Source: a virus
DNA: 37,592 nucleotides
Virus record (IMG/VR): IMGVR_UViG_3300042449_001113
Location: 1-37,592 of that record
Strand: one strand, 5' to 3'
Every line of letters starts with the position of its first letter. Positions within the stretch are counted from its first letter, which is position 1. This document shows positions 6,316-37,502 of the stretch, piece by piece. The position numbers and the translations under genes were made by a program. The notes under the pieces are model-generated. The model made no database searches. It saw only the letters and a list, made by a program, of their open reading frames with translations, and was not told the DNA's origin.

Positions 6316-6333
6316 GCCCGGGGCGCAGGCCGG

Positions 6334-6678: not shown

Positions 6679-6706
6679 GGTTCAGGCTCCTGAAGTGGTG
6701 CGGCGG

Positions 6707-7156: not shown

Positions 7157-7174
7157 GGTCTCTCTCCTCTGCGG

Positions 7175-7938: not shown

Positions 7939-7971
7939 GCTAGGAAGGCCCACCGCGCGGGCCGCGCGCCG

Positions 7972-8340: not shown

Positions 8341-8346
8341 GCTGCT

Positions 8347-8841: not shown

Positions 8842-8843
8842 GG

Positions 8844-9185: not shown

Positions 9186-9253
9186 GGTGTTCTCCTGGTT
9201 CAATGGGCGGTGAAGCACCGGAAACTGGCTCTTATGGTTCCGGCGCGATGTCC

Positions 9254-11395
9254 TTACACGGTCCGAGACAGCATGACCTTGACTTGGCCTGCGGCCACCG
9301 CCGTGGCGTCGGTGTCTGCCACGCCGCCGGTAATGGCGATGCCCAAGCCCAATGCAAAGCGGTAACCGTTGAAGCCTGGCGTGATCTCGACCGCCCCAGG
9401 AACGCCGGCCACTGCTGCAGGAACGGTGATAACCATTGCAGGAACATCGGACGCGAGAACCGGCGCGGTCGCTTTGTTGTACAGCTTCACAAATGCCGGA
9501 GTTGCGCCGATGTTTGTGGCGTAGAAAGCCTGCAGGCCACTGGAGCCCGTCAAAATCAAGGCGATGTTGGTAGATGCGAGACTGTTCAGGATGTAGGGCG
9601 TGGCCGGGGCAAGCGGCGTACCGGCGCTGGTGACAGCGGAGACGGTCGAAACGGTCGTGACGCCAGTGACGGAGGCAATCGTGCCCCCTTGCGGGACAAC
9701 AGGAACCGCGCCGGCCATGTCGCCGGCCGGGCGAGACAGCAGCTCAACACGCTCGCGCTGGAACTCGAACACCCGCACGAACGACACCCGAATGTCGGTG
9801 CGCTTGATGATCGCGCCGCCGCAGTTGGTGCTGGCGAAGTCCGCCGGAAGGGTGCGCTGACCCGGGAACGGCAAAACCAACGTCAGGAAAGTCGTGGCCT
9901 GGTTGGCGATCTTCCACGGGCCATCCATGCCGAGCGAAGTGCCTGTCAGGTCTGCCCGCATGCCGACCACGTTAACGAGGTCGCCGATAGAGCCAGCGGC
10001 CCATGTCGTGTTTCCGGTGATGACGAGTTGCCGCGTGCCGTCTGCCAGCGTGGACAAAACCGCAGACTGCGCAACCACCGCGCTGGCGCCCAGCGCAGAC
10101 ATCAGGTTACCACCCTGCACCTTGGCGACGTATCCGCCATAGCTGGTTGAGATAACGGCCGTACCGATGACAATCGTGAACGACGTAGCATCAATGACAG
10201 ACGCAACGCCCGTAGCTACCAGAAGGTTGGCGAAGTTGGTCTGATCGCGGATGCCGTAGACGACAACCGGATCACCAACAATAAACCCGTGCGGAACGTC
10301 GGTTGTAATCGTCGCGGTGGCGCTGGGGGTGGCTTTAACCGCTGAAACGATCTGCGCGGCAGGGACAGTCAGTGCCTTGTTGTTCGTGGCCCGAAAGCGC
10401 AGGCGGTAGTCATTAAGCGGGTCCGGGCAGACCTGCACGCGCAGCAACCGGTTGATCGACTGCGCAACAGTGTCGATGACTGTATCGGAACACTGGACGC
10501 GATCCGACTGGATGTTGTAGCGGTACTCCGTCGAAGGGGAGAAGCTGTACGTGTACGGCGTGTTGGGGGCAATTTGAGTCGAGGCCGTCGTCGCAATCGT
10601 GACGGAGTGGTTTCCCGCGACGGTTCCCGACGGAAGCACGTCGCCAGATTCGCTGCGGACGTAAAACGACGAGTTCGTAACGGTCGGGTTCTCGAAGATT
10701 TGCGAAACGCCGTTTTGCGCGCGGCCAAGTCGCTCTCGGAAATAGACAAACCCCTTCTCGCCGGATGGGTTCGCAATCGTCTGCGATGCGATAGTGCCAC
10801 CAGGCCCCGCAGTTACTGTGAACTGGGTCGGCGACGTAACAGTGGCGACAACCAAAGACGGATAGTTCGCTAACTCGTTTGCGCACCCAAAGATGCCGAT
10901 AGATCGGCCAGCGTACAGGCCGTGCGGTGCAACGGTGTCAACCGTCAACACCGACAGCGCTTGAGTGATCGACGCGATGGCAATGTCGGGCACATCGGGA
11001 AGCGACGGCAGCGTATCGACAAACTCGACCGCCATCTCCTGGCCGAGCGTGCGCTGTGACATCGACAGGCCGATCGACGCCTCAATCGGCATCTTGACGG
11101 TGTCAAGCGACGTGACGACCGTCTCTGTTCCGGCCTGCAGCGGGTCTTTGCTGATGACGAGGTACGAAGCGGCTGCTGCGTTGCCGTCCACGAACACCAG
11201 GTCGCCGCTGCCGCGCGACTCGACCCAGCGGCCACCGTTCACGGGGTCATAGGTCTCGAACGCATCGCGTAACGTGGCGACGTTGCCGGCGCCCATGAGC
11301 GTCATGGAAACGCCGTCATAGCTGTACGGCCCGCGGCCGGTCGTGCGGTCATACCAGCCGGCGCCGGTGAATTCAAACCCTTGCGGAATCGTCAT
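9254..11395 (-). CDS. Large repeat-containing virion protein
   Basis: 713 aa, the third largest protein here and unusual for the neck region. It contains at least two related segments of about 45 residues (about 155-200 and 360-410), each with a PHG...G.....G pattern, then LVVATV or LLVATG, then a T.FT.V end, and a probable third divergent copy. Such repeats occur in phage adhesin-like or decoration proteins. Base composition looks lower in GC than its neighbours, suggesting later acquisition. It has an AGGA site before the ATG. It could be a head- or neck-attached fibre; a strong call is not possible. Confidence 0.7.
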   Translation of the reverse strand: MTIPQGFEFTGAGWYDRTTGRGPYSYDGVSMTLMGAGNVATLRDAFETYDPVNGGRWVESRGSGDLVFVDGNAAAASYLVISKDPLQAGTETVVTSLDTVKMPIEASIGLSMSQRTLGQEMAVEFVDTLPSLPDVPDIAIASITQALSVLTVDTVAPHGLYAGRSIGIFGCANELANYPSLVVATVTSPTQFTVTAGPGGTIASQTIANPSGEKGFVYFRERLGRAQNGVSQIFENPTVTNSSFYVRSESGDVLPSGTVAGNHSVTIATTASTQIAPNTPYTYSFSPSTEYRYNIQSDRVQCSDTVIDTVAQSINRLLRVQVCPDPLNDYRLRFRATNNKALTVPAAQIVSAVKATPSATATITTDVPHGFIVGDPVVVYGIRDQTNFANLLVATGVASVIDATSFTIVIGTAVISTSYGGYVAKVQGGNLMSALGASAVVAQSAVLSTLADGTRQLVITGNTTWAAGSIGDLVNVVGMRADLTGTSLGMDGPWKIANQATTFLTLVLPFPGQRTLPADFASTNCGGAIIKRTDIRVSFVRVFEFQRERVELLSRPAGDMAGAVPVVPQGGTIASVTGVTTVSTVSAVTSAGTPLAPATPYILNSLASTNIALILTGSSGLQAFYATNIGATPAFVKLYNKATAPVLASDVPAMVITVPAAVAGVPGAVEITPGFNGYRFALGLGIAITGGVADTDATAVAAGQVKVMLSRTV

Positions 11396-14992: not shown

Positions 14993-15013
14993 CCGCCCAT
15001 AGCACTGCCAAGG

Positions 15014-15029
15014 GTGACAGGAGAGTCAC
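15014..15029. promoter_or_regulatory. GTGAC-N6-GTCAC inverted repeat
   Basis: A perfect 5-bp-arm inverted repeat centred about 50 bp upstream of the protease ATG and about 40 bp upstream of its TAGCAT motif. That is the spacing expected for an activator or repressor half-site pair. Only one copy was noticed. Confidence 0.35.
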
Positions 15030-15278
15030 GCCTCGCCCGGCACTGCATGCAGTCATGGAAGCATGCAGGCCCAGCGCACCCAGGAGGCTGCGATTCGTCG
15101 GCGGCGGGCAGGCTGAAGTCACCCCGTAACCCGTCGTCTTGCGCGGTCCCTCGCAAACAGGCCGCACGGCGCGCGGTCAGGGTGAGCCGACCGGCCGGTC
15201 TTTGCGCGGTGTGGCCCGATGCAGGGCCGTGCTCGCTTTCGCCACGCTCGCGCGCCCGCTGGCGGCCGGAAACGAACA

Positions 15279-16085: not shown

Positions 16086-18002
16086 CTACTTGCGGGCGGT
16101 CTTCTTCTGTTGCGCCTGCCAGCGGGCCAGCTCGGTGCGGCTGGTCTCCTTGGCGCGGTCGGTCAGCATCGGGCGGCCTTCGTCGTCGAGAAGCACCTCG
16201 GTGACGCTGCAGTGGCAATTCGACGCGACGATGTTGCTTCCTAGCATGAGCCCACTCCGCTCCTGCAGGTCGAACACATGCCCCTCGTAATGGCTCACCA
16301 CGACATCAACCACCTGATCGAACGCTGCAAGGCCGGCGAAACGCTGAAGAACATCGCCGACAGCATCGGGGCCTGTGATCGCACCGTCATGGAGGCGTTC
16401 CACCGCGTCGGGTTCCGGCCCCTGCAATGGGACCGCGAGCAGACCACCAAGGCCTGCCAGCCGTTGCACGCCGCCCACATGGCCGGGGAGTCGCTGCTGT
16501 CGATCAGCCAGCGCACCGGCATTGGCCGCAGCACCATCATCCGGGCCTTCAGACGCCTCGGGCTTCCCTGGCGGGATCGCAGCGAAGGGCAGCGCGCCCG
16601 GATGGCCCGGCTCGACGCCGACGCCCGCCGCGCGCATGTCGCTGGCGCCAACGCTGCCGCCAGGGTGCGCGACATCCCGATGGGCGAGAAGATCAAGCGC
16701 GCGGCGACGCGCAGCCGTCGTGTCGGGGCACACGAGCGCCAGCTGATCGAGGAGCTGGCCCGCGTCGGCGTCCATGCCGAACACCAGTTCCCGATCGGCC
16801 CTTACAACGTGGACTTGTGGGTCAACGAAGGCCGCGTCGCCGTGGAGATCTACGGGGCTCACCCGAGCCGTGCTCTGATGTCCACCCGCATCCACAAGCG
16901 CACGGAATACATCCTCGACGCGGGGCATAACCAGCTGACCGTGCAGCTGTCGCACCCGCGCGGCAAGTCCTTCGACCTGGCCGCGGTACGCGACAAGGTG
17001 ATCGCCTTCGCGGAGTTCTGCGGCCGGCACCATCCCGCGGGCGGTCAGCACGGGGTGATTCGCGGTAACGGCGAGTTCGTGGCCCGCAGCAGTCACCAGA
17101 CGCACGGCCGGCCCCTTGTAGTAGGACTGGATGCCCGCTGAGAAGCGGCCGGCCACGCGCGTGCCGGGCAGGAAGCAGCGGTAGATGTTCCCGTCGCGGC
17201 TGTAGAAGTCCCGCACCTCGGCGCTGCTGTACGTGCGGCCGTTGCGCACGGCGTGGGTCGGCCGCGTCGTCGGGATCAGCGCCGACTTCCACAGCAGGCC
17301 GATCTCCATGCCCAGGTTCTCAACGGCCCAGTCGCGCTCGTCTAGGCGTGTCATGCGCAGCGTGTCGGTGATGTCGGTCTGTGCGTACTGCTCAGCCCTT
17401 GCCCGCGAAACCCCCATGCGCTCTGCGATCTCCTTCGCCACCACGCGCGGGTTCTTCCCGTCGACCACGCCGCGACCGATGATCTGCGACAGCGCCGACT
17501 TCTCGCCGGCAGACAGCCCGGTCCAGTGCTCGTAGCTCTTGATCTGCGCCATCGCCACCCGGTTCTGAAAGCCCTGGCTCATGAGGGCCGAGCCGATGTC
17601 CCGCGACGCCGCGTAGGTGGCCGACAGCGCCGACAGGTTCGCCGCGCTCTGCGCCAGCCCAAGCTGTGCGGCCTCGGCGTCGATCTGCGCGTACCAATGC
17701 GTCCGGTAGCTGCCGCCGGCCACGGCCTCGATCCAGCGGTCGAAGGCCTCGCGTAACGCCTGTGTAACGGCGGCCAGTTCCTCGGGCGTCAGCGCGTACA
17801 CCGTCCGCGGCTGCGTGCTCTGGTCGTTCTGCGCCACCTCGCCGACGACCCGGATGCGCGCGAAGATGGCCAGCACCTCGGCCGCAAGCCCGGCCCAGCG
17901 CTGCCGGATCGCCCGGATCGCCCGGCGCTGAACAGGCCCGCTGCCGGTGCGGTCGGTCGTGTCGCCCGGGATGATGGGCGAGCGCGGGCGGATGCGGCTC
18001 AC
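16086..18002 (-). CDS. MuF-like head morphogenesis protein interrupted by an intein
   Basis: 638 aa in one open frame. Residues 1-275 are a MuF-type minor head protein (AEQYAQTDITDTLRMTRLDER core) and residues 596-638 are its end, beginning CHCSV, the conserved Cys-x-Cys motif of MuF. Between them, residues 276-595 form an intein (see separate entry). After splicing the protein would be 318 aa. MuF proteins sit at the portal, take part in head assembly and may be ejected with the DNA. The ATG overlaps the portal stop (ATGA). Confidence 0.88.
   Translation of the reverse strand: MSRIRPRSPIIPGDTTDRTGSGPVQRRAIRAIRQRWAGLAAEVLAIFARIRVVGEVAQNDQSTQPRTVYALTPEELAAVTQALREAFDRWIEAVAGGSYRTHWYAQIDAEAAQLGLAQSAANLSALSATYAASRDIGSALMSQGFQNRVAMAQIKSYEHWTGLSAGEKSALSQIIGRGVVDGKNPRVVAKEIAERMGVSRARAEQYAQTDITDTLRMTRLDERDWAVENLGMEIGLLWKSALIPTTRPTHAVRNGRTYSSAEVRDFYSRDGNIYRCFLPGTRVAGRFSAGIQSYYKGPAVRLVTAAGHELAVTANHPVLTARGMVPAAELREGDHLVAYRGQVEGLAARVRQLHGQLVMPRVEDVFRALVDAGGHQSTARVSPVDLHGDAAFVDPQVHVVRADRELVFGMDADAGQLLDQLALVCPDTTAARRRALDLLAHRDVAHPGGSVGASDMRAAGVGVEPGHPGALPFAAIPPGKPEASEGPDDGAAANAGALADRQQRLPGHVGGVQRLAGLGGLLAVPLQGPEPDAVERLHDGAITGPDAVGDVLQRFAGLAAFDQVVDVVVSHYEGHVFDLQERSGLMLGSNIVASNCHCSVTEVLLDDEGRPMLTDRAKETSRTELARWQAQQKKTARK
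16238..16248 (+). promoter_or_regulatory. TTCCTAGCATG motif upstream of the antisense endonuclease
   Basis: The TTCCTAGCAT sequence that precedes several minus-strand late genes also occurs here on the plus strand, about 30 nt before the endonuclease ATG. It could drive that gene. It also encodes part of the intein C-terminal block, so coincidence is possible. Confidence 0.3.
16278..17141 (+). CDS. Vsr-like homing endonuclease encoded antisense inside the intein
   Basis: 287 aa, entirely inside the intein DNA but on the opposite strand. Residues about 21-48 and 70-97 are two helix-turn-helix segments (ETLKNIADSIG and ESLLSISQRTG). Residues about 150-230 resemble the very-short-patch-repair nuclease fold: Glu 153, Gln 170, Asp 179 in YNVDLW, Glu 190 in VAVEIYG, His 195, Arg 204. 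Nucleases of this type (EDxHD) are known with inteins. The last 40 codons overlap the Hint N-terminal coding region on the other strand, so that DNA codes both ways. It likely cuts intein-free MuF genes to spread the intein. ATG 16290 is an alternative start; neither has a strong ribosome site. Confidence 0.8.
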   Translation: MPLVMAHHDINHLIERCKAGETLKNIADSIGACDRTVMEAFHRVGFRPLQWDREQTTKACQPLHAAHMAGESLLSISQRTGIGRSTIIRAFRRLGLPWRDRSEGQRARMARLDADARRAHVAGANAAARVRDIPMGEKIKRAATRSRRVGAHERQLIEELARVGVHAEHQFPIGPYNVDLWVNEGRVAVEIYGAHPSRALMSTRIHKRTEYILDAGHNQLTVQLSHPRGKSFDLAAVRDKVIAFAEFCGRHHPAGGQHGVIRGNGEFVARSSHQTHGRPLVVGLDAR

Positions 18003-29014: not shown

Positions 29015-29229
29015 AGTGGCCCGCCGATGACATCGGCCGCACCATGTGGGCATCGCCGCGCCGCTGCAGTGGCGACAGCTGCCACCAGTGCCGCGCCGAA
29101 TGCAAAACGCCCGAGGCGTGCCAGCTTCCAGAGTCGGCTGACACGTTCCTGTCGGCGTACTCGCGATCGCTGCTGTCAGCGCTGCTGGTGCTGGTGTGCG
29201 CGGTCGTCGTGGTGGTGTTGTCGCTGTGA
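29011..29229 (+). CDS. Small Cys-rich membrane protein
   Basis: 72 aa from a GTG at 29011. The middle holds a Cys cluster (CSGDSCHQCRAEC) that could bind metal, and the last 20 residues are a strong hydrophobic helix (LLSALLVLVCAVVVVVLSL), making a C-terminal membrane anchor. Its stop overlaps the exonuclease start. Confidence 0.5.
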   Translation: MKWPADDIGRTMWASPRRCSGDSCHQCRAECKTPEACQLPESADTFLSAYSRSLLSALLVLVCAVVVVVLSL

Positions 29230-30128
29230 ACGCGCCGCGCGAGCTTCGTCTCGGCCTCGTGCGCGACATGCCGGCCGAGGAATACCACGCTACCCAGGCC
29301 ATGAGCGCGGGCGGCCTGAAGCGCATGCGGCAGAGCCCGGCGCACTTCTTCGGCCAGGTGATGGACCCGGCGAAGCCGCCCGAGAAGGACAGCAAGGCCA
29401 AGGCCAACGGCACGTTGACCCATTGCCTTCTGCTGGAGCCGCACGAGTTCGACGCCCGCTTTGCCGTGGTCCCCGAGGACGTTCCCTATTCGCGCCCCAG
29501 CAGCCGCCAGCGCAAGGCCGCGAAGCCCTCGGAAGGCACGGTCGCGGCCATCGCGTGGTGGGACGCTTTCGACGCTGCGAACGCCGGCAAGATCATCGTC
29601 GAGCCAGACGCGCTGGCTGCCGCGAAGGCCCAGGCCGCCGCAGTGCGCGCCGTGCCAGACCTGGCCGCCCTGCTGGCTGAAGGCTACGGCGAGGCCTCGT
29701 GCTTCTGGATCGACGAGGAAACCGGCGAGCTGTGCAAGTGCCGGCCCGACTGGACGAGCCCTGCCGGTGACGGCGTGATCCTGACCGACGGCAAGACCTG
29801 CCGCGACGCGAGCCCCGAGGGCTTCGGTCGCGCGATCTGGAATCTGGGCTACCACCTGGCCGCAGCGTGGTACTCCGACGGCTTCGAGAAGGCCACCGGC
29901 CAGCGCGTGCACGGCTTCGTGTTCGCCGCCGTTGAGTCCGACTGGCCGCACGTCGCCATGCCCTACATGCTGGGCGACGACGTGCTGGCGGCTGCGCGCC
30001 GAGAGAACCGGCGCCTGCTGAACCGATACGCCGAGTGCAAGCGCACCGGCGTGTGGCCGGGCTACGGCTCGGCCGTGCAGCTCATCAACCTGCCCAAGTG
30101 GGCGAACCTGGAAAGCAACGAGCAATGA
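29226..30128 (+). CDS. RecE-like exonuclease (PD-(D/E)XK fold)
   Basis: 300 aa from a GTG at 29226. The pattern MPAEEYHATQAMSAGGLKRM, GTLTHCLLLEP (His 66), CRPDW (Asp 175), LTDGKTC (Asp 188, Lys 190) and GYHLAAAWYSDGF matches exonuclease VIII/DUF3799-type phage nucleases. Such enzymes chew 5' ends to make single-strand tails for annealing. The following gene would be its annealing partner. Confidence 0.85.
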   Translation: MNAPRELRLGLVRDMPAEEYHATQAMSAGGLKRMRQSPAHFFGQVMDPAKPPEKDSKAKANGTLTHCLLLEPHEFDARFAVVPEDVPYSRPSSRQRKAAKPSEGTVAAIAWWDAFDAANAGKIIVEPDALAAAKAQAAAVRAVPDLAALLAEGYGEASCFWIDEETGELCKCRPDWTSPAGDGVILTDGKTCRDASPEGFGRAIWNLGYHLAAAWYSDGFEKATGQRVHGFVFAAVESDWPHVAMPYMLGDDVLAAARRENRRLLNRYAECKRTGVWPGYGSAVQLINLPKWANLESNEQ

Positions 30129-31081
30129 ACGAGATCGTCGAGTCACCCTTCGCCGCGACGCGCGGCGCCGTCGCGCCGCACGACAGCGCCGGGTCGCGCC
30201 AGAACCAGAGCCGCGAGCTCGCCGAGACGCAGACCAAGTACCTGATGGCCGAGCGCTTCCCGCGCAACGAAGTCGCGGCCATGGACAAGATCCTGAACGC
30301 CTTCAGCCGGCGCACGCTGGCCGAGAAGGCGCAGTATCAGTTCGCACGCGGCGGCAGCGACGTGGCCGGCCCCAGCATCCGCGCGGCCGAGGCCATCGCG
30401 CAGCAGTGGGGCAACATGGACAGCGGCTGGCGCGAGCAGCAGCGCGGCGTCGACGCGGGCGGCGTGCCCTACAGCGAGGTCGAGGCCTTCTGCGTCGATC
30501 TGCAGAGCCGCAACTCCAAGCGGCTGACCTTCATCGTGCGGCACTGGCGCGACACGAAGCAGGGCGGCTACAAGCTCAAGGACGAGCGCGACATCTACGA
30601 GCTGTGCGCGAACCAGGCCCAGCGCCGCCTGCGCGCGTGCATCCTGGCGTCGATCCCCGGCGACGTGACCGAGGCCGCGATGCAGCAGGCTGAGGCGACG
30701 CTGAGGGCCAGCGCCGACACCAGCCCCGAGGCGATGGTCAAGATGCTGGAAGCCTTTGCGCCGTTCAGCGTTACGAAGGAGCACATCGAAAAGCGCATTC
30801 AGCGCCGGTTGGACAGTATCACGCCGGCCCAAGTCGTGAGCCTGAAGCGCATCTACGCCAGCCTGCGCGACGACATGAGCACGCCGGGCGAGTGGTTCGA
30901 GATGGGCGACGCGCCGCCGCCGGCCGACGCCACGGGCAGCCTGGACAAGGTGCGGCAGGCCACGGCCGCGAAGAAGACGGCCACGAAGCCAGCTGCAGCG
31001 CCTGAGCCGGCCCCGGCACCACCTCCCGCAGCCGACCCCTCGGATGAGGGCTTCGGCGACCTAGCGGACCCGCAGCCGTGA
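30125..31081 (+). CDS. Single-strand annealing-type recombination protein
   Basis: 318 aa overlapping the exonuclease stop (ATGA). The core (PRNEVAAMDKILNAFSRRTL, QYQFARGGSDVAGPSIRAAE, DIYELCANQAQRRLRACIL, KRIQRRLDSITPAQVVSLK) matches a phage protein family paired with RecE-like nucleases and used as a RecT analogue. The C-terminal 60 residues are a Pro/Ala-rich acidic tail, common for binding to single-strand-binding protein. Role is inferred from the partner gene. Confidence 0.78.
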   Translation: MNEIVESPFAATRGAVAPHDSAGSRQNQSRELAETQTKYLMAERFPRNEVAAMDKILNAFSRRTLAEKAQYQFARGGSDVAGPSIRAAEAIAQQWGNMDSGWREQQRGVDAGGVPYSEVEAFCVDLQSRNSKRLTFIVRHWRDTKQGGYKLKDERDIYELCANQAQRRLRACILASIPGDVTEAAMQQAEATLRASADTSPEAMVKMLEAFAPFSVTKEHIEKRIQRRLDSITPAQVVSLKRIYASLRDDMSTPGEWFEMGDAPPPADATGSLDKVRQATAAKKTATKPAAAPEPAPAPPPAADPSDEGFGDLADPQP

Positions 31082-31088
31082 GCGCAGC

Positions 31089-31340
31089 ATGAACGGCAAC
31101 CCACAAGGCAAGCGAGCCCCATTCGTCGGCCGCCGCCAGGCTGCAGCGCTGCGCTACATCGCCCGGCGCAAGACACCGCCGACGCGCTCAGAGATTGGCC
31201 GTCACCTTGGCATCACGCGCGTGTCGGCGCATCTGCTGGTGGACAAGCTGGTGTCCGCGCAACTGCTGGCGCGTGATGGTCTGGGCTGGCGGAATCTTCG
31301 GGTGACAGAGAGCGGGCGCACGATGGTGGGGACGGCATGA
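31089..31340 (+). CDS. Winged-helix DNA-binding protein
   Basis: 83 aa with a clear winged-helix motif (TRSEIGRHLGITRVSAHLLVDKLVSAQLL, split here into TRSEIGRHLGITRVSAH and LLVDKLVSAQLL), similar to the LexA DNA-binding domain. There is no peptidase domain. It may regulate the operon. It ends on ATGA shared with the next gene, whose 3' part is the first cassette. Confidence 0.65.
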   Translation: MNGNPQGKRAPFVGRRQAAALRYIARRKTPPTRSEIGRHLGITRVSAHLLVDKLVSAQLLARDGLGWRNLRVTESGRTMVGTA

Positions 31341-31747
31341 GCACACAAGACGCAATCCGCCAAGCGCTGCGCGAGCTTGCCGCGCTGTCGACCGGTGAGC
31401 CTTCGTTAGCGGAGAGCAGCATCGAGAGAATCGAGAGCGTGCTGCGCGCAGCACTATGCGCCGACGAAGATCGGATCGGCTCGCACGCGGGGTTAGGCCT
31501 GGCGCCGGAGCGCGCAGGGCAGCCGCGTTTTTACACGGCAACGGGACCAGTGCCCGCAGCCGGGCATTGGTACAGCCCCGCAGCAGTGCGCGAGCTGCTG
31601 GCCGCAGAGCGCGAGCGGTGGCAGCGCATCGCCGCCAACGCGCAGGCGATGACGACCGGATGCGTTGACAAACTCGACTACTTCGAGGTGCCGTCGCACC
31701 TGATGGCAGCGCTGGCGCTGGCGCTGGATGAAGGGCCTAACGAGTAG
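31337..31747 (+). CDS. Phage gene fused in frame to cassette unit 0
   Basis: 136 aa. The first about 51 codons (ending ADEDRIGSHAG) belong to phage backbone sequence. From GTTAGGC at 31492 the frame runs into a cassette, giving LGLAPERAGQPRFY and the YSPAAVRELLAAERERW pattern found in other small phage proteins. The stop TAG lies in the collapsed attC at 31735-31753. The cassette part has no start of its own. So the protein is either a chimera created by insertion, or the backbone part is itself the leader region of a lost attC/attI site. Confidence 0.6.
   Translation: MSTQDAIRQALRELAALSTGEPSLAESSIERIESVLRAALCADEDRIGSHAGLGLAPERAGQPRFYTATGPVPAAGHWYSPAAVRELLAAERERWQRIAANAQAMTTGCVDKLDYFEVPSHLMAALALALDEGPNE
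31492..31498 (+). repeat. Left edge of cassette array (R' only)
   Basis: GTTAGGC marks the array's left border. It is preceded by GCACGCGGG, loosely like the GAGCGAGGG before other R' boxes, but no matching left arm (RYYYAAC plus L'' box) was found within 150 bp upstream. It may be an attI-like or secondary integration site. Confidence 0.6.
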
Positions 31748-31753
31748 TTAGGC
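31735..31753 (+). repeat. Collapsed attC (19 bp)
   Basis: GCCTAAC-GAGTA-GTTAGGC: both outer boxes are intact but the inner L boxes and the loop are gone. Probably a deletion or recombination derivative of a full attC, and expected to be poor as a recombination site. Confidence 0.75.
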
Positions 31754-31770
31754 GTCTGTTGGAGGATGAG

Positions 31771-31974
31771 ATGAAAGAACGAGTGCTGAAGAACGAGGCT
31801 GACTTTGTGCAGTGGAAAGAAGACTGCATTGCGCACAGCGACACCGCAGAACCGCCCACAAAGTACCCATGCTTGGCGCGCACCTTTGTGAGCGACTGGA
31901 ACTATCAAGAGGAAACGGCGGAGTACCTGTACCGCGAAGATATTGCGGCGCTGCTGGCCGAGATGGACGCCTAA
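31771..31974 (+). CDS. Cassette 1 protein, unknown
   Basis: 67 aa from ATG 31771, 6 nt after GGAGG; a TTG 12 nt upstream is in frame but has no ribosome site. Acidic, with aromatic residues (DFVQWKEDC, DWNYQEETAEYLYRED). Its TAA stop lies inside the R'' box of the attC that follows. Possibly a small interaction or inhibitor protein; no family recognised. Confidence 0.6.
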   Translation: MKERVLKNEADFVQWKEDCIAHSDTAEPPTKYPCLARTFVSDWNYQEETAEYLYREDIAALLAEMDA

Positions 31975-32088
31975 CGCTAAAGCTGAACCGCCCCAAGGGG
32001 CCGAGAGGAACGGACGATGACAACGGAACACACGAGCACAGACCAAGCCGCCCAGCCCCTTGGGGTCGGTTCGAGCGAGGGGTTAGGC
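31969..32088 (+). repeat. attC site 2 (120 bp) carrying a start signal
   Basis: R'' GCCTAAC, L'' about AGCTGAACC, L' about GGTTCGAGCG, R' GTTAGGC; the outer arms pair as a bottom-strand hairpin. The loop contains a GAGG ribosome site and the ATG at 32017 that starts the next cassette's gene. Confidence 0.9.
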
Positions 32089-32565
32089 CCACTCGCGCAA
32101 CCGTCGAATGACAAGCTGCGCGCGGCCCTAGAAGACGCTCGCGCAGAGGACGAAGGCGACACGTTACGTGACGACGCTAAGCAGGCGCTTTGGGCGTTGC
32201 GTGAGCGACGGTCTACTTGGTTTGACGTGGACGAACTGGAGTTGCGCAAACAGATTGACGTTTTCTTTGGGCGAGGCGCGTGGCACGAAACATGGGTGAT
32301 GAACAGTCAGCGCCGACTATGTGAACAATACGGCGCCGCTGTGTTTGGCGACCTGGGGCCAGGTGCCCGCGGCCATGTATGGGCTACGTGGAATGATGGC
32401 GCAAGAATGCGATTCCACATCACGACGCCGCTTCGGGAATTGCATCAGATGCTGTCAGCAGCGCGTAATCATGGCGGCGTTGATGACGACCTGCGAGACC
32501 TGATGACTGAGGTTTACGGGCCTAACGTTCGAGCTAACCGGCCCAGCGGGGCCGAACAGGAGTAG
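32017..32565 (+). CDS. Cassette 2 protein, start supplied by attC
   Basis: 182 aa. The first 24 codons are attC sequence (through GSSEGLG), then cassette sequence begins. No other usable start exists in the cassette part before the middle of the protein. The cargo is acidic at first, then ELRKQIDVFFGRGAWHETW and RMRFHITTPLRELHQMLSA. No family recognised. The stop lies inside the next attC. Confidence 0.6.
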   Translation: MTTEHTSTDQAAQPLGVGSSEGLGPLAQPSNDKLRAALEDARAEDEGDTLRDDAKQALWALRERRSTWFDVDELELRKQIDVFFGRGAWHETWVMNSQRRLCEQYGAAVFGDLGPGARGHVWATWNDGARMRFHITTPLRELHQMLSAARNHGGVDDDLRDLMTEVYGPNVRANRPSGAEQE

Positions 32566-32622
32566 ACGATGCGAGACGATGTAGCCGGCCCCGATGGGTC
32601 CGCGTTGAGCGAGGAGTTAGGC
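32520..32622 (+). repeat. attC site 3 (103 bp) carrying a start signal
   Basis: R'' GCCTAAC then GTTCGAGCTAACCGG; right arm TTGAGCGAGGAGTTAGGC. The inner arms GGCCCAGCGGGGCCG and CGGCCCCGATGG can also pair. AGGAG and ATG 32569 in the loop start the next gene. Confidence 0.9.
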
Positions 32623-32868
32623 CCGCTGCCGCAGCCTGCAATGTTGCGCGGGGTCGATGAGGACTACTACACCGCCGAGCAAATGCGCGCCTACGGAGCG
32701 CAAGAGCGCGCCGCAGAGCGCGAGCGGTGCTCGACGCTGCCACGCCTGCCGACACCGCGACTGCTGGCAAGTGGAACCATTGCCGGCAAGCGCATTGAGC
32801 TGCACGGCTGGCACACCGAGGACATTGAAATCTGGCAGCGCCAGCACGGCCTGAAGTTCGGGGCCTAA
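32569..32868 (+). CDS. Cassette 3 protein, start supplied by attC
   Basis: 99 aa. The first 16 or so codons come from the attC (ending SEELG), then DEDYYTAEQMRAYGAQERAAERERC, a pattern seen in many small phage proteins of unknown role, and a C-terminal GWHTEDIEIWQRQHG. An ATG at about 32641 lies in the cassette but has no ribosome site. The TAA stop is in the R'' box of attC 4. Confidence 0.6.
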   Translation: MRDDVAGPDGSALSEELGPLPQPAMLRGVDEDYYTAEQMRAYGAQERAAERERCSTLPRLPTPRLLASGTIAGKRIELHGWHTEDIEIWQRQHGLKFGA

Positions 32869-32914
32869 CGCCCGAGTTCAGCCGCCGTAGGTCGGCTGGA
32901 ATGAGGGGTTAGGT
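32863..32914 (+). repeat. attC site 4 (52 bp)
   Basis: The shortest full site: GCCTAAC, AGTTCAGCCG, 5-nt loop, CGGCTGGAAT, GTTAGGT. Its outer boxes do not match each other (C/T change), but GTTAGGT matches ACCTAAC at the far end of the following cassette. Confidence 0.9.
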
Positions 32915-32954
32915 GCCTGCCCCAACAAAGGCACCATTGTTGGAGAACCAAGGA

Positions 32955-33371
32955 ATGAAGACTTCGATTGCTACGATGATTGCCGCCACTGCGGCGCTGG
33001 TCCTTGCCGCGTGCGGCAATGATGTGAGCTTCGACACGCTGGAGACGGCGCGGAAGCAGGCCAAGGAGAACGCCGAGTTCAACGCTCGGGCCTGGCGCTC
33101 GCAATTGCCAGCGATGGCCGAACTGAGTCTGATCAGCCGAGGCGACAGCACGCAAGCGCCGGCATGCCCCCAAGGCGACGGCTGGGCAACGATTGACGTG
33201 GTGGACCCGAAGACGGCCGGAGTTCGCGTGAAGCTGAAGTGCAGCACGGTCAGCGACAGCGTGGGCTGCCGCGCTGACGCCGACTTCAAGGCCAGCCCGT
33301 TTGCTAACGAGGACGGGCGCTGCCAAAGCACCGACAAGGTGCCGCACCCTCTGCCGAAGATCGCCAAATGA
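32955..33371 (+). CDS. Cassette 4 lipoprotein
   Basis: 138 aa with a signal peptide (MKTSIATMIAATAALVL) and lipobox LAAC (Cys 20). The mature part is soluble, with Cys residues that may pair (ACPQGDG, LKCSTV, VGCRAD, GRCQST). GGAGA precedes the ATG. It probably reaches the cell surface or periplasm and might change surface recognition or block a second phage. The next small gene overlaps its stop. Confidence 0.7.
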   Translation: MKTSIATMIAATAALVLAACGNDVSFDTLETARKQAKENAEFNARAWRSQLPAMAELSLISRGDSTQAPACPQGDGWATIDVVDPKTAGVRVKLKCSTVSDSVGCRADADFKASPFANEDGRCQSTDKVPHPLPKIAK

Positions 33372-33508
33372 GCACGGTTGGCATCTTTGCTGGGCGCGGG
33401 GATGTCATCCTGTCGATGGGTCTCGCGCTCATCTTCGGGGTGTGGGTCGGGTGGCAGTTGCGCGGGCTGCTGGAGCGCCTTCGGCGGCGCCGCGCTGGGG
33501 GCACCTAA
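33368..33508 (+). CDS. Cassette 4 small membrane protein
   Basis: 46 aa, sharing ATGA with the lipoprotein stop. One hydrophobic segment (VILSMGLALIFGVWVGWQL) followed by a very basic tail (LERLRRRRAGG) puts the C-terminus in the cytoplasm. Its TAA lies in the R'' box of attC 5. The pair forms a two-gene cassette, perhaps an envelope protein and its partner. Confidence 0.6.
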   Translation: MSTVGIFAGRGDVILSMGLALIFGVWVGWQLRGLLERLRRRRAGGT

Positions 33509-33557
33509 CGTCTGAGGTAAGCGGCCGTACTCGGTCCGCTTGACCGAGAGGTTAGAG
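33503..33557 (+). repeat. attC site 5 (55 bp)
   Basis: ACCTAAC, GAGGTAAGCGG, loop, CCGCTTGACC, then GTTAGAG. The R' box GTTAGAG is unusual and is matched only by CTCTAAC at the far end of cassette 5. Confidence 0.9.
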
Positions 33558-33586
33558 CGCATCCGCGCACAACAGGAGCAACGAAG

Positions 33587-34102
33587 ATGGGCAGAGAAGT
33601 GAGGCGCGTGCCGGCCGACTGGCAACACCCGAAGCACTGGACTGGCGGCGTGCACGGCCCGGAAGAGCGCTACAAGCCGCTGTTTCCCGGCGAGCGCTAC
33701 CAGCCGCGCGTGGACGAGTGGGACGAAGAGTGCGCCAAGTGGAAGGCCGGCTGGCGCCCTGACCATTGCACCGACCCAGAGAGTCGCGCTATGTGCTACG
33801 AGCAATGGGCCGGCCAGCGCCCGCACCGCGACGACTACATGCCGAACTGGCCCACCGAGCAGCGCACGCATCTGATGATGTACGAGGACACCAGCGAAGG
33901 CACGCCGATCAGCCCGGCCTTCTCCACGCCAGAAGAACTGGCGCGGTGGCTGGTGGACAACAGGGCCAGCGCGTTCGGCGGCCAGGGCGCGAGCTACGAA
34001 GTGTGGCTGCGGGTGGCGCGAGGCGGCTTCGCGGTCGGGATGGTCATGACGGTGCATGAGGACGGCACGAAGACCATGCAGAGCGGTGTTGATGCGCTCT
34101 AA
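33587..34102 (+). CDS. Cassette 5 protein, phage hypothetical type
   Basis: 171 aa starting MGREVRRVPADWQHPKHW behind AGGAG. This is a pattern I recognise from hypothetical proteins of many phages, with GERYQPRVDEWDEE and THLMMYEDTSEGTPISPAF. It ends in a beta-rich domain (SYEVWLRVARGGFAVGMV). The function is unknown. Its presence shows that phage-type genes have been packed as cassettes. Confidence 0.7.
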   Translation: MGREVRRVPADWQHPKHWTGGVHGPEERYKPLFPGERYQPRVDEWDEECAKWKAGWRPDHCTDPESRAMCYEQWAGQRPHRDDYMPNWPTEQRTHLMMYEDTSEGTPISPAFSTPEELARWLVDNRASAFGGQGASYEVWLRVARGGFAVGMVMTVHEDGTKTMQSGVDAL

Positions 34103-34225
34103 CGTTCGAGCTAAGCTGCCCGCGGAGGAAGCCGATGACCGGCCGCGCAGGGACGATGGCAACGCAAGCCCGGAGCGGCCGGGCATTGGCTGCCGTAGCG
34201 GGTCAGCTTGAGCGAGGGGTTAGGC
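34097..34225 (+). repeat. attC site 6 (129 bp)
   Basis: The longest site: CTCTAAC, GTTCGAGCTAAGCTGCCCGC ... GCGGGTCAGCTTGAGCG, GTTAGGC, long imperfect stem. The loop has GGAGG and an ATG at 34135 that opens a 32-codon frame across the recombination point. Confidence 0.9.
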
Positions 34226-34233
34226 CGCCCTAA
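34135..34233 (+). CDS. Short frame started inside attC 6
   Basis: 32 codons from ATG 34135, 6 nt after GGAGG, reading MTGRAGTMATQ and crossing the R' box at 34219, then stopping three codons later just before the cassette 6 gene. It may be a leader peptide or an idle start signal that would extend a different cassette after reshuffling. Confidence 0.3.
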   Translation: MTGRAGTMATQARSGRALAAVAGQLERGVRPP

Positions 34234-34250
34234 CCGAAGCGAGAAAAACC

Positions 34251-34541
34251 ATGAAAGTGAAACCGGAAATAGTCGCTTACATCGTGCGTCCGTGGATTCG
34301 CGCCGAGGACATTGGCCGCCCTGTAACGGTGTTGCGGCGCGGGATTCGCGGGCAAAGTGTGACCACGCGGAATGGCGGCATCTCGCTCTGTGATGGTCCT
34401 GGCGAAAGCACGGGGTGGCTGTGCGATGCGCACGGCGGCAAGTTCCCGTGCTTTATTGCAGAGGAATGCCTGCGCCCGCTGGGCGGCGACAGCGCCGACA
34501 CATACGAGCCCGCCAATGCTGGAATGCCACAGGCGGCCTAA
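34251..34541 (+). CDS. Cassette 6 protein, unknown
   Basis: 96 aa (MKVKPEIVAYIVRPWIR start), a compact beta-rich protein with three Cys residues (SLCDG, WLCDAHG, EECL). No strong ribosome site (GCGAG before the ATG). The TAA is in the R'' box of the next attC. Confidence 0.6.
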   Translation: MKVKPEIVAYIVRPWIRAEDIGRPVTVLRRGIRGQSVTTRNGGISLCDGPGESTGWLCDAHGGKFPCFIAEECLRPLGGDSADTYEPANAGMPQAA

Positions 34542-34595
34542 CGTTGGAGCTAAGCGGGCCGCCGAAGGCGGGTTAGCTTGAGCGAGTAGTTATGC
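34536..34595 (+). repeat. attC site 7 (60 bp)
   Basis: GCCTAAC, GTTGGAGCTAAGCGGGC ... GTTAGCTTGAGCG, GTTATGC. Its R' box GTTATGC is unusual and matches GCATAAC at the end of cassette 7. Confidence 0.9.
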
Positions 34596-34627
34596 AGCGC
34601 CTGGTGGCGCACAACGGGAGATTAAAG

Positions 34628-34951
34628 ATGATGGGACGTAGCGAACTTTGCGCATGGCTGCGCGCCAAAAGCAGCGGCGACTATCGACCAGCGGCTGAAG
34701 CGGCTGACGAGATAGAACACTTGGCCGAAGCAAAAGACAGCCACTTTGCGCAGGCAATGGCGAACGGGGAGAAGGCCCGCGAGTACCGCGACGAAGCCGC
34801 CGCGCTGCGCAAGGACGCCGAGCGCTACCGCAAGCTGCGCGACAAGGGCGCCGCCCTGGGCTTGCGCGGCATTTTCAACCTGCTGCCCGGCGAGTGGAAC
34901 GAAGCGATTGATGCTGCGGCGCCAGAAGACCCGGCTGTTGGCGCTGCATAA
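34628..34951 (+). CDS. Cassette 7 coiled-coil protein
   Basis: 107 aa from ATG 34628 behind GGGAG; an upstream ATG at 34592 overlaps the R' box and lacks a ribosome site. Helical and charged throughout (REYRDEAAALRKDAERYRKLRDKG), like many small phage coiled-coil proteins. Its TAA is in the R'' box GCATAAC. No function known. Confidence 0.6.
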   Translation: MMGRSELCAWLRAKSSGDYRPAAEAADEIEHLAEAKDSHFAQAMANGEKAREYRDEAAALRKDAERYRKLRDKGAALGLRGIFNLLPGEWNEAIDAAAPEDPAVGAA

Positions 34952-35015
34952 CGTTGCAAATAAGCTGCCCACGGAGGCGCAGCCGTAGTGGGTCAGCTTG
35001 ATTTGCGTGTTAGGG
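34946..35015 (+). repeat. attC site 8 (70 bp)
   Basis: GCATAAC, AAATAAGCTGCCCAC ... GTGGGTCAGCTTGATTTGCG, GTTAGGG. The stem AAGCTG/CAGCTT is well preserved although the outer boxes belong to different cassettes. Confidence 0.9.
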
Positions 35016-35061
35016 CGCTGGTGCCGAAGCGTGACCATGTTTGCGTGTTACAAAATAGTTG

Positions 35062-35089
35062 TTGACGCTGGCGTTTGTTGTGCTACAGT
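35062..35089 (+). promoter_or_regulatory. Internal promoter of cassette 8
   Basis: TTGACG (35062-35067), 16-nt spacer, TACAGT (35084-35089), in a locally AT-rich stretch at the start of the cassette. It would let this three-gene cassette be expressed wherever it lands. Confidence 0.65.
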
Positions 35090-35124
35090 AACTACATCGC
35101 AACACGCAACCCGGAGCAAGCAAC

Positions 35125-35259
35125 ATGACCATCGCCACCAAGACCATCAAGTTCCTCGGCAAACGCATGACGTTCTTCCAAGTGTGCCAAGGCGCCGAGG
35201 TTGTCCAAGTCTGCGAAACCGAAGCGCAAGCCAAGCAGTGGATCGAGGCCAACAAGTGA
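35125..35259 (+). CDS. Cassette 8 gene A, small unknown protein
   Basis: 44 aa (MTIATKTIKFLGKRMTFFQV start), basic, with two Cys residues, GGAG upstream. It ends on GTGA shared with gene B. No family recognised. Confidence 0.55.
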   Translation: MTIATKTIKFLGKRMTFFQVCQGAEVVQVCETEAQAKQWIEANK

Positions 35260-35534
35260 GCGCAAGGGCGGAAGCCCTTGCCGCCATGCAGGCGCGGCTT
35301 GCGTCTGCTGGACTTGGGCATGAGTCGATCTCTGTCTTTGGCGCCGTGCGCTGCAATGTGCATGTGCGCTGTGTTGGCCGCGATACTGCCGACAAGTGGG
35401 CGCGGCTGCTTGGCGCAGTCTTCAAAGACGCGAAGGTTTACGTCGGCGCGCACGAATGGCCTGCGGCTGAGAACAAGGGCACCTGCTTGCGGCCCACAAA
35501 GCGGCGCGGTTACTTGGTGGCGGTGACCGCATGA
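35256..35534 (+). CDS. Cassette 8 gene B, unknown protein
   Basis: 92 aa from a GTG at 35256. The sequence is alpha/beta (ISVFGAVRCNVHVRCVGRDTADKW, AVFKDAKVYVGAHEW). It overlaps both neighbours by 4 nt, which strongly suggests that the three genes work together. No family recognised. Confidence 0.6.
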   Translation: MSARAEALAAMQARLASAGLGHESISVFGAVRCNVHVRCVGRDTADKWARLLGAVFKDAKVYVGAHEWPAAENKGTCLRPTKRRGYLVAVTA

Positions 35535-35713
35535 CCCCCCCCAACAAAGGCGGGCGCCCACCCGCCCCGCCAGCCCTGCGCCGCGTGAACGTCCCCGTGC
35601 GCCTGCCCGCGTGGCTTGTCGAGTGGATGGCAGCGCAGCCCGACACGCCCGCAGCGCTGATCGAGGCCGCACTGCTGAAGGCGCACAAACTGCGCCCGCC
35701 GCGTGCGCCCTAA
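35531..35713 (+). CDS. Cassette 8 gene C, possible ribbon-helix-helix protein
   Basis: 60 aa. After a Pro-rich start it reads RRVNVPVRLPAWLVEWMAAQPDTPAALIEAALLKAH, which fits a short beta strand followed by two helices, as in CopG/Arc-like DNA-binding proteins. It might control the cassette 8 promoter. Its TAA is in the R'' box CCCTAAC. Confidence 0.5.
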   Translation: MTPPNKGGRPPAPPALRRVNVPVRLPAWLVEWMAAQPDTPAALIEAALLKAHKLRPPRAP

Positions 35714-35807
35714 CGTTCGAGCTAAGCTGCCGTGAACGGCGCTGAGGCTTGGACGAAGCGAGAAAACGTGGCCGCCGTTCGCGGTCAGCTTGAGCGAGGG
35801 GTTAGCC
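35708..35807 (+). repeat. attC site 9 (100 bp)
   Basis: CCCTAAC, GTTCGAGCTAAGCTGCCGTG ... GCGGTCAGCTTGAGCG, GTTAGCC. The inner arms around GAACGGC and GCCGTTC extend the stem. GTTAGCC pairs with GGCTAAC at the end of cassette 9. Confidence 0.9.
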
Positions 35808-35822
35808 CTCATGAGGTGAAGC

Positions 35823-36080
35823 ATGAAAGTAAAGGAACTGATGGCAGCGCTGGCCGAAGCCGACCCCGAGGCGGACGTGATTTTGCAGAAGGATGCCGAA
35901 GAGAACGGCTACTCACCGCTGGCGGGTGCCGACCTGAACGCGGTGTACGTGCCAGACAGCACATGGAGCGGTGACGTGTACTCGATGGATTGGACCGCCG
36001 ACGATGCGTGCATGACGGCCGCTGAGTGGTCCGAGATGCAGGCTAAGCCGCGCTGCGTGGTGCTGCACCCTGTGAACTGA
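35823..36080 (+). CDS. Cassette 9 protein, small phage type
   Basis: 85 aa starting MKVKELMAALAEADPEADVIL, the same pattern as small phage and plasmid proteins that begin with a KELIEAL-type helix followed by a beta strand. GAGGTG lies before the ATG. Function unknown. Stop TGA is 2 nt before the next attC. Confidence 0.65.
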   Translation: MKVKELMAALAEADPEADVILQKDAEENGYSPLAGADLNAVYVPDSTWSGDVYSMDWTADDACMTAAEWSEMQAKPRCVVLHPVN

Positions 36081-36081
36081 G

Positions 36082-36184
36082 GGCTAACGTTCGAGCTAAC
36101 CGCGCCAATGACGGCGCTACAGGAGCATGAAGATGGAACAAAGCAACCCGCCGGCATTGGTCCGGTTGAGCGAGGGGGTTAGGC
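36082..36184 (+). repeat. attC site 10 (103 bp) carrying a start signal
   Basis: GGCTAAC, GTTCGAGCTAACCGCGCC ... TTGGTCCGGTTGAGCG, GTTAGGC. CAGGAGC and ATG 36127 in the loop begin the next gene. Confidence 0.9.
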
Positions 36185-36417
36185 CGCCCGCCGGGTGGTC
36201 TGAGTGCTGCACTTGCGGCCACCGCTGGCGAACAGGTCAGCACGGCGGCCACAGTTGCGCCGAGAAGTTGCGCGAAGAACTTGACATCACCGACAAGCTG
36301 TTGGCCGAGCGTGAGCGCGTGTTGCGAGCCATACCGGAGTGCCCGGAGCATGGCGCCGGATGCGTGCCGCATGCACTGGAATGGATTGAGCGCGCAAAGG
36401 CGGCCTTAGCGGCCTAA
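36127..36417 (+). CDS. Cassette 10 protein, start supplied by attC
   Basis: 96 aa. The first 18 codons are attC sequence (through LSEGV). The cassette part contains a CCTCGHRW motif and later HGGHSC, possible zinc ligands, then a coiled coil (REELDITDKLLAERERVL) and a second Cys/His cluster (ECPEHGAGCVPHALEW). No Met codon exists in the cassette part, so the attC start is essential. TAA is in the R'' box. Confidence 0.65.
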   Translation: MKMEQSNPPALVRLSEGVRPPAGWSECCTCGHRWRTGQHGGHSCAEKLREELDITDKLLAERERVLRAIPECPEHGAGCVPHALEWIERAKAALAA

Positions 36418-36498
36418 CGTTCGAGCTAAGTTGCCCGCCGCTGGGTAGCTCGAACACCACGCCCGCTGTTGCGGGTCAACTTGAGCGAGGGGTTAGCC
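36412..36498 (+). repeat. attC site 11 (87 bp)
   Basis: GCCTAAC, GTTCGAGCTAAGTTGCCCGC ... GCGGGTCAACTTGAGCG, GTTAGCC. GTTAGCC pairs with GGCTAAC at the far end of the RNA ligase cassette. Confidence 0.9.
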
Positions 36499-36528
36499 GC
36501 CCCTAGCCGAAGCAAGAAGGAAGACCGA

Positions 36529-37083
36529 ATGAAGAAGACCCTGAGCCTGTTTCAGCGCAACTACGATGGCGACCGCCTGGTGCGCGACGAACTCGTGCCC
36601 GGTGCCGAGTGGGTGGCCGCTGGCGAGGGCGTGGCGACGCGCAAGCTGGACGGAACCTGCTGCATGTGGCGCGACGGCAAGCTGTGGAAGCGCCACGAAC
36701 TGAAGGCGGGCAAGGTTGCGCCGGTCGGCTTTGAGGCTGCGCAAGAGCCCGACAGCGTGACCGGCGATGTGCCGGGCTGGGTGCCGGTGGGCGAAGGCCC
36801 GGATGACGCGCGGCACCGCGAAGCGCTGGCCGCGGCTGGCGGCACGCTGCCGGACGGCACTTACGAGCTGTGCGGCCCGAAGGTGCAGAAGAACCCCGAG
36901 GGCTACGCATCGCATGTGCTAATGCGCCACGGGGCCGAAGTGCTGACCGACTGCCCGCGCACGTTCGATGCGCTGCGCGAGTACCTGCACGGGCGCGACA
37001 TCGAGGGCGTTGTGTGGCACCACCCTGATGGGCGGCTGGTGAAGATCAAGGGCAAGGACTTCGGCCTGCGGCGCGGCGAGTGA
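36529..37083 (+). CDS. Cassette 11 RNA ligase (DUF5565-type)
   Basis: 184 aa from ATG 36529 behind AAGGA. The nucleotidyltransferase motif I is RKLDGTC, with Lys 39 as the predicted adenylylated residue. A YELCGPK region follows, then motif IV EGVVWHHPDGR and motif V VKIKGKDF. This order and length match the small RNA ligases of the DUF5565 group. In phages such ligases can mend tRNAs cut by host defence nucleases, so this may be an anti-defence cargo. The ligase activity is a family prediction; the defence role is inference. Confidence 0.85.
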   Translation: MKKTLSLFQRNYDGDRLVRDELVPGAEWVAAGEGVATRKLDGTCCMWRDGKLWKRHELKAGKVAPVGFEAAQEPDSVTGDVPGWVPVGEGPDDARHREALAAAGGTLPDGTYELCGPKVQKNPEGYASHVLMRHGAEVLTDCPRTFDALREYLHGRDIEGVVWHHPDGRLVKIKGKDFGLRRGE

Positions 37084-37090
37084 GGCGGGC

Positions 37091-37190
37091 GGCTAACGGT
37101 TGAGGAAAGCTGCGCCCCACGGCGCTGGTGCGCTGACGAAGCGCGATAGAGCTGCCGCCGTGGGGTGTCAGCTTGTGCGAAGTGTTAGGC
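37091..37190 (+). repeat. attC site 12 (100 bp)
   Basis: GGCTAAC, GAGGAAAGCTGCGCCCCACGG ... CCGTGGGGTGTCAGCTTGTGCG, GTTAGGC. The CCCCACGG/CCGTGGGG arms give it one of the strongest stems in the array. Confidence 0.9.
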
Positions 37191-37215
37191 GCGCGGCGCC
37201 GAAGCGAGGAAGCGT

Positions 37216-37461
37216 ATGAAGATCAAAACCAACCAATACGGCTGGAACTCTGAGGGCAAGGTATCTACGTGGGTAGACAACGAGATTTCCGACGTGCGGA
37301 ATGACGGAGAACTTGAGCGCGCACGCGCAATCGCGGTGGCTTGCTCTGAAGCCTTTGGACGCTTGGTTGAGGTGCTCGCCGAGAAAGGCGTTTTGTCCGC
37401 GCCCGAGGTTTACCGCGTGGCGAAGGGCTACCACAACGATAGCGCGACGTTTGAGGGCTGA
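37216..37461 (+). CDS. Cassette 12 protein, unknown
   Basis: 81 aa (MKIKTNQYGWNSEGKVSTW start). Mostly helical after residue 30 (ARAIAVACSEAFGRLVEVLAEKG). Lower GC than the phage backbone. It ends 4 nt before the half attC. No family recognised. Confidence 0.6.
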   Translation: MKIKTNQYGWNSEGKVSTWVDNEISDVRNDGELERARAIAVACSEAFGRLVEVLAEKGVLSAPEVYRVAKGYHNDSATFEG

Positions 37462-37465
37462 ACGC

Positions 37466-37472
37466 GCCTAAC
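37466..37472 (+). repeat. Right edge of array: half attC
   Basis: GCCTAAC followed by TGAGCTATAG. It pairs with the GTTAGGC at the left of cassette 12, but no L' and R' boxes follow before the window ends, so the last attC appears truncated here or its right arm lies beyond 37592. Confidence 0.6.
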
Positions 37473-37502
37473 TGAGCTATAGCCAATCCCTGCAAGCTCT
37501 GC

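Follow-up and report, generated by a model that had tools for sequence, protein, structure and literature searches.

An Integron Cassette Array With Reversed Cassettes in a Phage Genome, and Phage Relatives That Encode Integron Integrases

Introduction

Integrons are known as a bacterial gene-capture system, and the choice of strand at their recombination sites (attC) has been called essential for guaranteeing the expression of an acquired gene (Bouvier et al., 2009; PMC2727003). Integrons and clusters of attC sites lacking integron integrases (CALINs) have also been described in phages, and phage attC sites have been found to work with IntI1 in E. coli (Qi et al., 2023; PMC9892861). The IMG/VR virus record IMGVR_UViG_3300042449_001113 was analysed over its positions 1 to 37,592, hereafter the window, and this phage genome holds a genuine integron cassette array at window positions 31492–37472. 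The attC sites of this array lie on the minus strand and its genes on the plus strand, and complete integrons with a separate clade of the integron integrase IntI are present in related phages; both features had been missed by the first-pass annotation, which was made from the sequence alone. A limited search of the open-licence literature turned up neither reversed phage cassettes nor a phage IntI lineage. What is new here is the cassette format with its genes reversed, a clade of phage IntIs together with its attI, and a precise exchange of cassettes beside an identical flank.

Results

The Cassette Array and Its attC Sites

A covariance model (R1) was built from 40 attC sites of 19 bacterial loci (chromosomes and metagenome-assembled genomes; alignment A3), with no window sites included. 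Searched against both strands of the 37,592-base window with the filters off, it returned 11 sites, all on the minus strand (E-values from 7.6e-10 to 3.5e-5); beyond these and a weak match to a collapsed site (E = 0.12) there was no other match in the window, and an Rfam search of the window gave none. The sites found are exactly the eleven complete attC-like sites of the first-pass annotation, all of which (11/11) were thus matched in the covariance-model search that it had proposed as its own check. It had also been right about the collapsed site, the range of site lengths (52–129 bp) and the single direction of the genes, and its 13 gene units correspond to the 13 cassettes that lie between the two terminal R boxes of the array. 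Each cassette holds one or two short genes. The features of the array are as follows (E-values are those of the covariance model; ORF, open reading frame).

31492–31498, minus strand: left half site, reduced to the right arm and R box (GTTAGGC) of a worn attC; distal end of the array
31735–31753, minus strand: collapsed attC, with 5 bases between its two R boxes; E 0.12
31969–32088, minus strand: attC, E 3.1e-8; internal start codon at 32017 opening ORF 32017–32565
32520–32622, minus strand: attC, E 4.2e-9; internal start codon at 32569 opening ORF 32569–32868
32863–32914, minus strand: attC, E 6.8e-9; cassette ORFs 32955–33371 and 33368–33508
33503–33557, minus strand: attC, E 7.6e-10; cassette ORF 33587–34102
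34097–34225, minus strand: attC, E 6.3e-6 over 34100–34225; cassette ORF 34251–34541
34536–34595, minus strand: attC, E 1e-7; cassette ORF 34628–34951
34946–35015, minus strand: attC, E 2e-7; cassette ORFs 35125–35259 and 35531–35713; promoter-like TTGACG/TACAGT near 35062
35708–35807, minus strand: attC, E 1.8e-9; cassette ORF 35823–36080
36082–36184, minus strand: attC, E 3.5e-5; internal start codon at 36127 opening ORF 36127–36417
36412–36498, minus strand: attC, E 2.1e-9; the cassette gene is an RNA ligase
36529–37083, plus strand: phage RNA ligase, cassette gene (phrog_14301, E 4.5e-73, 182/186 positions)
37091–37190, minus strand: attC of the last cassette, E 1.6e-6; cassette ORF 37216–37461
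37466–37472, minus strand: right R box GTTAGGC; array end on the attI side

Every integron cassette was circular at one time, and complementarity is therefore expected between the start and the end of one cassette, not between the arms of one attC. In the window, the start and end of each cassette matched over a total of 96 nt in 13 cassettes, whereas the arms within a site matched over 32 nt in 12 sites, and none of 200,000 permutations reached the 96 nt of own-cassette match. With two or more attC sites and no intI, the array belongs to the CALIN type. At the right junction (37472–37492) the minus-strand sequence is GGCTATAGCTCAGTTAGGC, similar to the beginning of a tRNA gene; ARAGORN predicted no tRNA there.

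Polarity of Genes and attC Sites

The attC site is asymmetric, with an extra base in one arm that sets the recombining strand. A position profile of the strand was trained on 132 attC sites of 24 bacterial loci, and in leave-one-locus-out tests it named the correct strand for 132/132 of these sites. It also scored an aadA1-type site at 54.9 versus 25.9. For the covariance model, the control was the class 1 integron carried by phage P1 (MH445380), and there the predicted attC strand was that of the preceding annotated resistance genes. By both the profile and the covariance model every complete window site lies on the minus strand, and the direction of the window genes was fixed as plus because of the RNA ligase homology. 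The bacterial rule that a gene shares the strand of its attC therefore does not hold in the window.

The same reversal was found across the viral loci. When ambiguous cassettes (18 bacterial and 27 viral) were omitted, gene and attC shared a strand in 80/90 bacterial cassettes (10 opposite) and lay on opposite strands in 75/90 viral ones (15 same; Fisher p = 8e-24). Nine of the 15 viral exceptions came from a single locus with a bacterial-type IntI (L134), and without it 74/80 viral cassettes were opposite. The record of that locus (IMG isolate record 2834908352) is a provirus call that ends in the bacterial-type IntI and 14 attC sites of usual polarity, and it is probably a host integron included in the call. 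A phage cassette is thus an attC followed by a gene, whereas a bacterial cassette is a gene followed by an attC. A Shine-Dalgarno-like sequence and start codon within the attC, reading into the gene, were present at 32/124 viral sites versus 9/132 bacterial sites read in the same geometry (p = 3e-5), which fits the attC-then-gene order of the phage cassettes. Single-site fold energies did not decide the polarity and were not used. A strand-neutral array detector gave no chain of three or more sites in 0.97 Mb of shuffled sequence.

The half sites at 31492–31498 and 37466–37472 are the terminal R boxes. Because genes and attC have opposite polarity, a correction to the first-pass annotation, the worn, distal end of the array is the one on the left, and the half site on the right forms its attI-side junction. 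The right arm of the left half site, which is spanned by ORF 31337–31747, recurs within a complete attC (3666–3761) of the relative L003. The idea that a recent insertion at a secondary site had produced the left half site was dropped, given the polarity result and this complete site.

Complete Integrons in Related Phages

Four viral loci (L071, L072, L073, and L074) encode a complete IntI with scores of 417–448 bits against TIGR02249 (cut-off 265), and the IntI of L005 still passes that cut-off (268.7 bits) even though it is cut by the contig end. Relatives with intI in the same replicon include L005, L070, and L071. Viral contigs were scanned using the IntI alignment of L071–L074, which gave 179 relatives; 80 loci were retained. 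The viral loci represent the top matches of a database scan, near-duplicates among them, and not a random sample.

Where the order of a complete phage integron was visible, it ran from early genes through the cassettes, attI and intI, often followed by a phage tyrosine or serine integrase, to lysis and tail genes; in L139 terminase and portal genes take the place of the latter. Cassette genes run with intI in 23/25 viral loci where an array could be detected (a count that includes near-duplicates), and against intI in 20/24 bacterial loci. In one set of IntI-bearing loci 107/109 attC hits lay on the strand opposite intI, as in bacteria. The geometry of attC and intI is therefore retained in phage arrays, and the genes alone are reversed. 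In many IntI phages a conserved junction (YAAC then TTNAATTCGACGACACC..CTGTC..TAAC) lies upstream of intI at the usual place of attI, and an attI-like motif was found upstream of 51/76 viral and 16/75 bacterial IntI genes and in 56/3340 random windows.

In a quick tree of 152 IntIs, 51 viral rows and three rows from bacterial records formed one clade (SH-aLRT 98), and most of the remaining viral rows fell into a second, mixed group. A careful tree was inferred from 63 rows picked from the main phage clade and the bacterial side. Here 33 main-clade rows (31 viral and 2 from bacterial contigs) were split off by a 100/96 branch, and the orientation label changed once. One of the bacterial-contig IntIs of the main clade, from Thiobacillus denitrificans RG, adjoins a phage integrase and an apparent chromosomal gltX, and its locus looks like a prophage. 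The IntI of L071 is 56% identical to the closest bacterial IntIs and 72–74% identical to its nearest phage relatives. Integrase decay was seen in L079, in which a phage-type IntI at 10001–10423 lacks its middle (the start is joined to the catalytic end) and lies beside a second tyrosine recombinase. Another locus, L077, looks like a plasmid.

Cassette Turnover Among Relatives

As the first-pass annotation had proposed to check, related phages carry different cassettes at the same place (L003, L005, L010, and L240). Three of them were found via the RecT-like protein encoded left of the array (L003, 97% identity; L005, 89%; L010, 86%) and have their arrays, with other cassettes, behind the same gene. 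The cassette ORF 33587–34102 is common to the window and the more distant relative G010 (79% amino acid identity). The clearest case is the pair of contigs L240 and L238, which share 5,472 identical bases rightward of the right R box. Left of this R box L240 has entirely different cassettes, and its match to the window is limited to the attC arms. The difference in cassettes on an identical flank is thus observed directly, and we infer that IntI made the swaps.

Two other explanations of this turnover were weighed. Recombination by phage RecE/RecT-like proteins between similar arrays might replace cassettes, with the attC sites serving as mere homology and not as integrase substrate; the exonuclease and RecT-like genes that adjoin the array, the likeness of attC arms across cassettes and the lack of IntI in the window phage are all in keeping with this. 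The R box match, however, follows the two ends of each cassette and not its neighbours, a pattern characteristic of circular cassettes that an integrase has produced. The attC polarity and extra-base asymmetry are also retained, and relatives keep intI and attI next to the array, so that we consider this explanation unlikely.

We regard it as quite improbable that the array goes back to a single capture of part of a host chromosomal integron array and now drifts as cargo in the manner of an ordinary CALIN. The genome without IntI and the resemblance of the window attC sequences to bacterial chromosomal ones would agree with such a capture, and CALINs are already known in phages (Qi et al., 2023). 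Against it stand the cassette genes, which are reversed relative to attC, unlike those of host cassettes, the arrays with other cassettes behind the same gene in several relatives, the phage-type RNA ligase in one cassette, and the whole-cassette difference beside the identical flank in L240.

Phage Location and Genome Closure

The window is a virus record that encodes a terminase, a portal, head and tape measure proteins, a helicase, a repressor, and an exonuclease. The left junction of the array is repeated at 99.99–100% in two other metagenomes (L001 and L002), and the right junction occurs in L238, L239, and L240, where the sequence continues into phage genes. L238, from another metagenome, overlaps the last 3,425 window bases at 100% and then adds 5,219 bases with small ORFs, an endolysin-like gene, and a tail gene; its end equals the first 127 window bases at 100%. 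The genome thus appears to close at about 42.8 kb, as judged from overlapping contigs of different samples. In G010 recombination genes are followed by an array and then by tail, head, and portal genes. The terminase of the nearest phage isolates is only 44–49% identical.

The first-pass annotation had named a chimeric join as the finding that would speak against it, and both junctions are reproduced in contigs from other metagenomes that continue into lysis and tail genes. That the array is an assembler chimera of host and phage DNA, or a host integron beside a prophage, could be entertained for a metagenome contig that stops 120 bp beyond the array, but given the repeated left junction, the right junction running on into phage genes and the phage genes on both sides of the G010 array, its probability is negligible, and it is already refuted unless all assemblies share one artefact.

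Genes In and Beside the Array

Three genes lie immediately left of the array:

29196–30128, plus strand: exonuclease VIII-like gene (phrog_412, E 7.6e-86), on the left flank of the array
30128–31081, plus strand: RecT-like gene (phrog_3657, which has no named function in PHROGs), adjoining the exonuclease gene
31089–31340, plus strand: small winged-helix (MarR-like) gene (PF12802, E 5.3e-7), the final gene ahead of the array

The RecT-like gene is the conserved left neighbour of the arrays, and 33 viral relatives of it were found. Most cassette genes received no functional assignment from PHROGs, Pfam or PADLOC, and a function is known for one window cassette only. In the relative L005 two cassette genes match the Pfam model N6_N4_Mtase and three others have a DPPY or DPPW motif; judging by these matches, the methyltransferase cassettes suggest a role in counter-defence, which they do not prove.

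A promoter within the cassette itself is possible for some phage cassettes. The window cassette near 35062 and a different cassette of L240 near 7550 have a stretch in common (cAcaaaatagttgttgac) that is followed by a promoter-like pair. A tRNA-Arg (CCT) lies within a cassette of the L005 array (14998–15072, minus strand), antisense to the remaining cassette genes, and a cassette of the L010 phage carries a queuine tRNA-ribosyltransferase-like gene (5196–5945, plus strand; phrog_887, E 1e-65). Elsewhere in the window a Mu-F-like head protein (16086–18002, minus strand) contains an intein (PF14890, E 7e-6). Inside it, on the opposite strand, lies a 287-aa ORF (16278–17141, plus strand) with weak matches to a helix-turn-helix domain and to DUF559 (Vsr-like), and this ORF is possibly a homing endonuclease encoded antisense to its intein.

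Discussion

Integrase Supply

The window, the bridging contig L238, and the contigs L239 and L240 contain no gene for IntI or any other tyrosine recombinase, and the first-pass annotation had likewise seen no integrase. An IntI directly right of the window was expected at first; L238 has lysis genes there instead. With no tyrosine recombinase encoded, the integrase would have to act in trans. The earlier suggestion of a borrowed integrase holds to this extent, although a host source is not required, as relatives carry an IntI of the phage lineage. The most likely supplier would be a co-infecting or resident relative with such an IntI, and otherwise a host integron. At the right junction of the window (GCCTAAC then TGAGCTATAGCC) the R box is present and the attI sequence of the IntI-bearing phages is not.

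A Probable Phage-Adapted Integron

Taken together, we consider it likely that the array is a phage-adapted integron of [attC, then gene] cassettes that would depend on IntI in trans and holds exchangeable small early genes. The reversal would let the cassette genes be read in the direction of the phage early operon, which goes from recombination genes at the left to lysis genes at the right, and the attC sites would retain the polarity that the integron integrase needs. Single cassette units would be lost and gained at the R boxes, with an entry point expected at the right end, where relatives have attI and then intI; swapping in the window phage would need the trans-acting IntI. The cassettes would form an exchangeable set of small early genes, and the DNA methyltransferases in relatives suggest that counter-defence may be among their roles. 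The integrase source, the early-operon expression and the benefit of the cassettes are what we infer beyond the observed arrangement.

Several observations weigh against a phage-adapted integron. IntI is missing from the window phage (window and bridging contig), and together with a right junction that lacks the phage attI this may mean that the array is no longer active there. Most cassette genes are without known function. Among the viral IntI loci 62/87 have no array of three or more sites. Many viral cassette gene directions rest on a GC-frame gene caller, and 27 viral and 18 bacterial ambiguous cassettes were omitted from the strand counts. The difference between L240 and L238 could also be explained by homologous recombination that ended at the R box by chance.

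On a wider scale it is probable that tailed phages have an integron lineage of their own, with an IntI clade, an attI and a back-to-front cassette pool, which acts as a swappable bank of small early or counter-defence genes and serves phages without IntI in trans. If so, phages run a gene-capture system of this kind themselves, with their own integrase and reversed cassettes, and phage integrons would help to explain how tiny early genes are exchanged as exact units. The reversed cassettes break the accepted link between the choice of attC strand and gene expression.

Comparison With Known Systems

Like the window array, the phages of Qi et al. (2023; PMC9892861) have attC arrays without IntI, and methyltransferase cassettes occur both there and in relatives of the window phage. 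The available text of that study deals with prophages that carry host-like integrons and isolated phages that carry short CALINs; it reports no phage IntI lineage, phage attI family or reversal of gene and attC, and the window record is not among the phages that it discusses.

The virus Rctr41k (KX853513, L081) resembles the phage integrons in that it encodes an IntI and methyltransferases and has attC-like sites in a chain. In this virus (4680–9434) IntI is followed by five long attC-like sites and methyltransferase genes; the covariance model gave no match to the sites following intI. Its IntI lies outside the main phage clade and is 41% identical to that of L071. The class 1 mobile integron in phage P1 (MH445380) has attC sites that are matched by the same covariance model as those of the window, but it shows the usual polarity, with gene then attC on one strand, unlike the window.

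The sedentary chromosomal integrons of Beta- and Gammaproteobacteria resemble the window array in attC structure and sequence (one covariance model fits both), in the R boxes and in the complementarity of the two ends of each cassette. The phage integrons also share with them the position of attI beside intI and the polarity of attC relative to intI. In bacteria the cassette genes point away from intI and share the attC strand, whereas those of phage arrays point towards intI and lie on the strand opposite attC, and the phage IntIs form a clade of their own.

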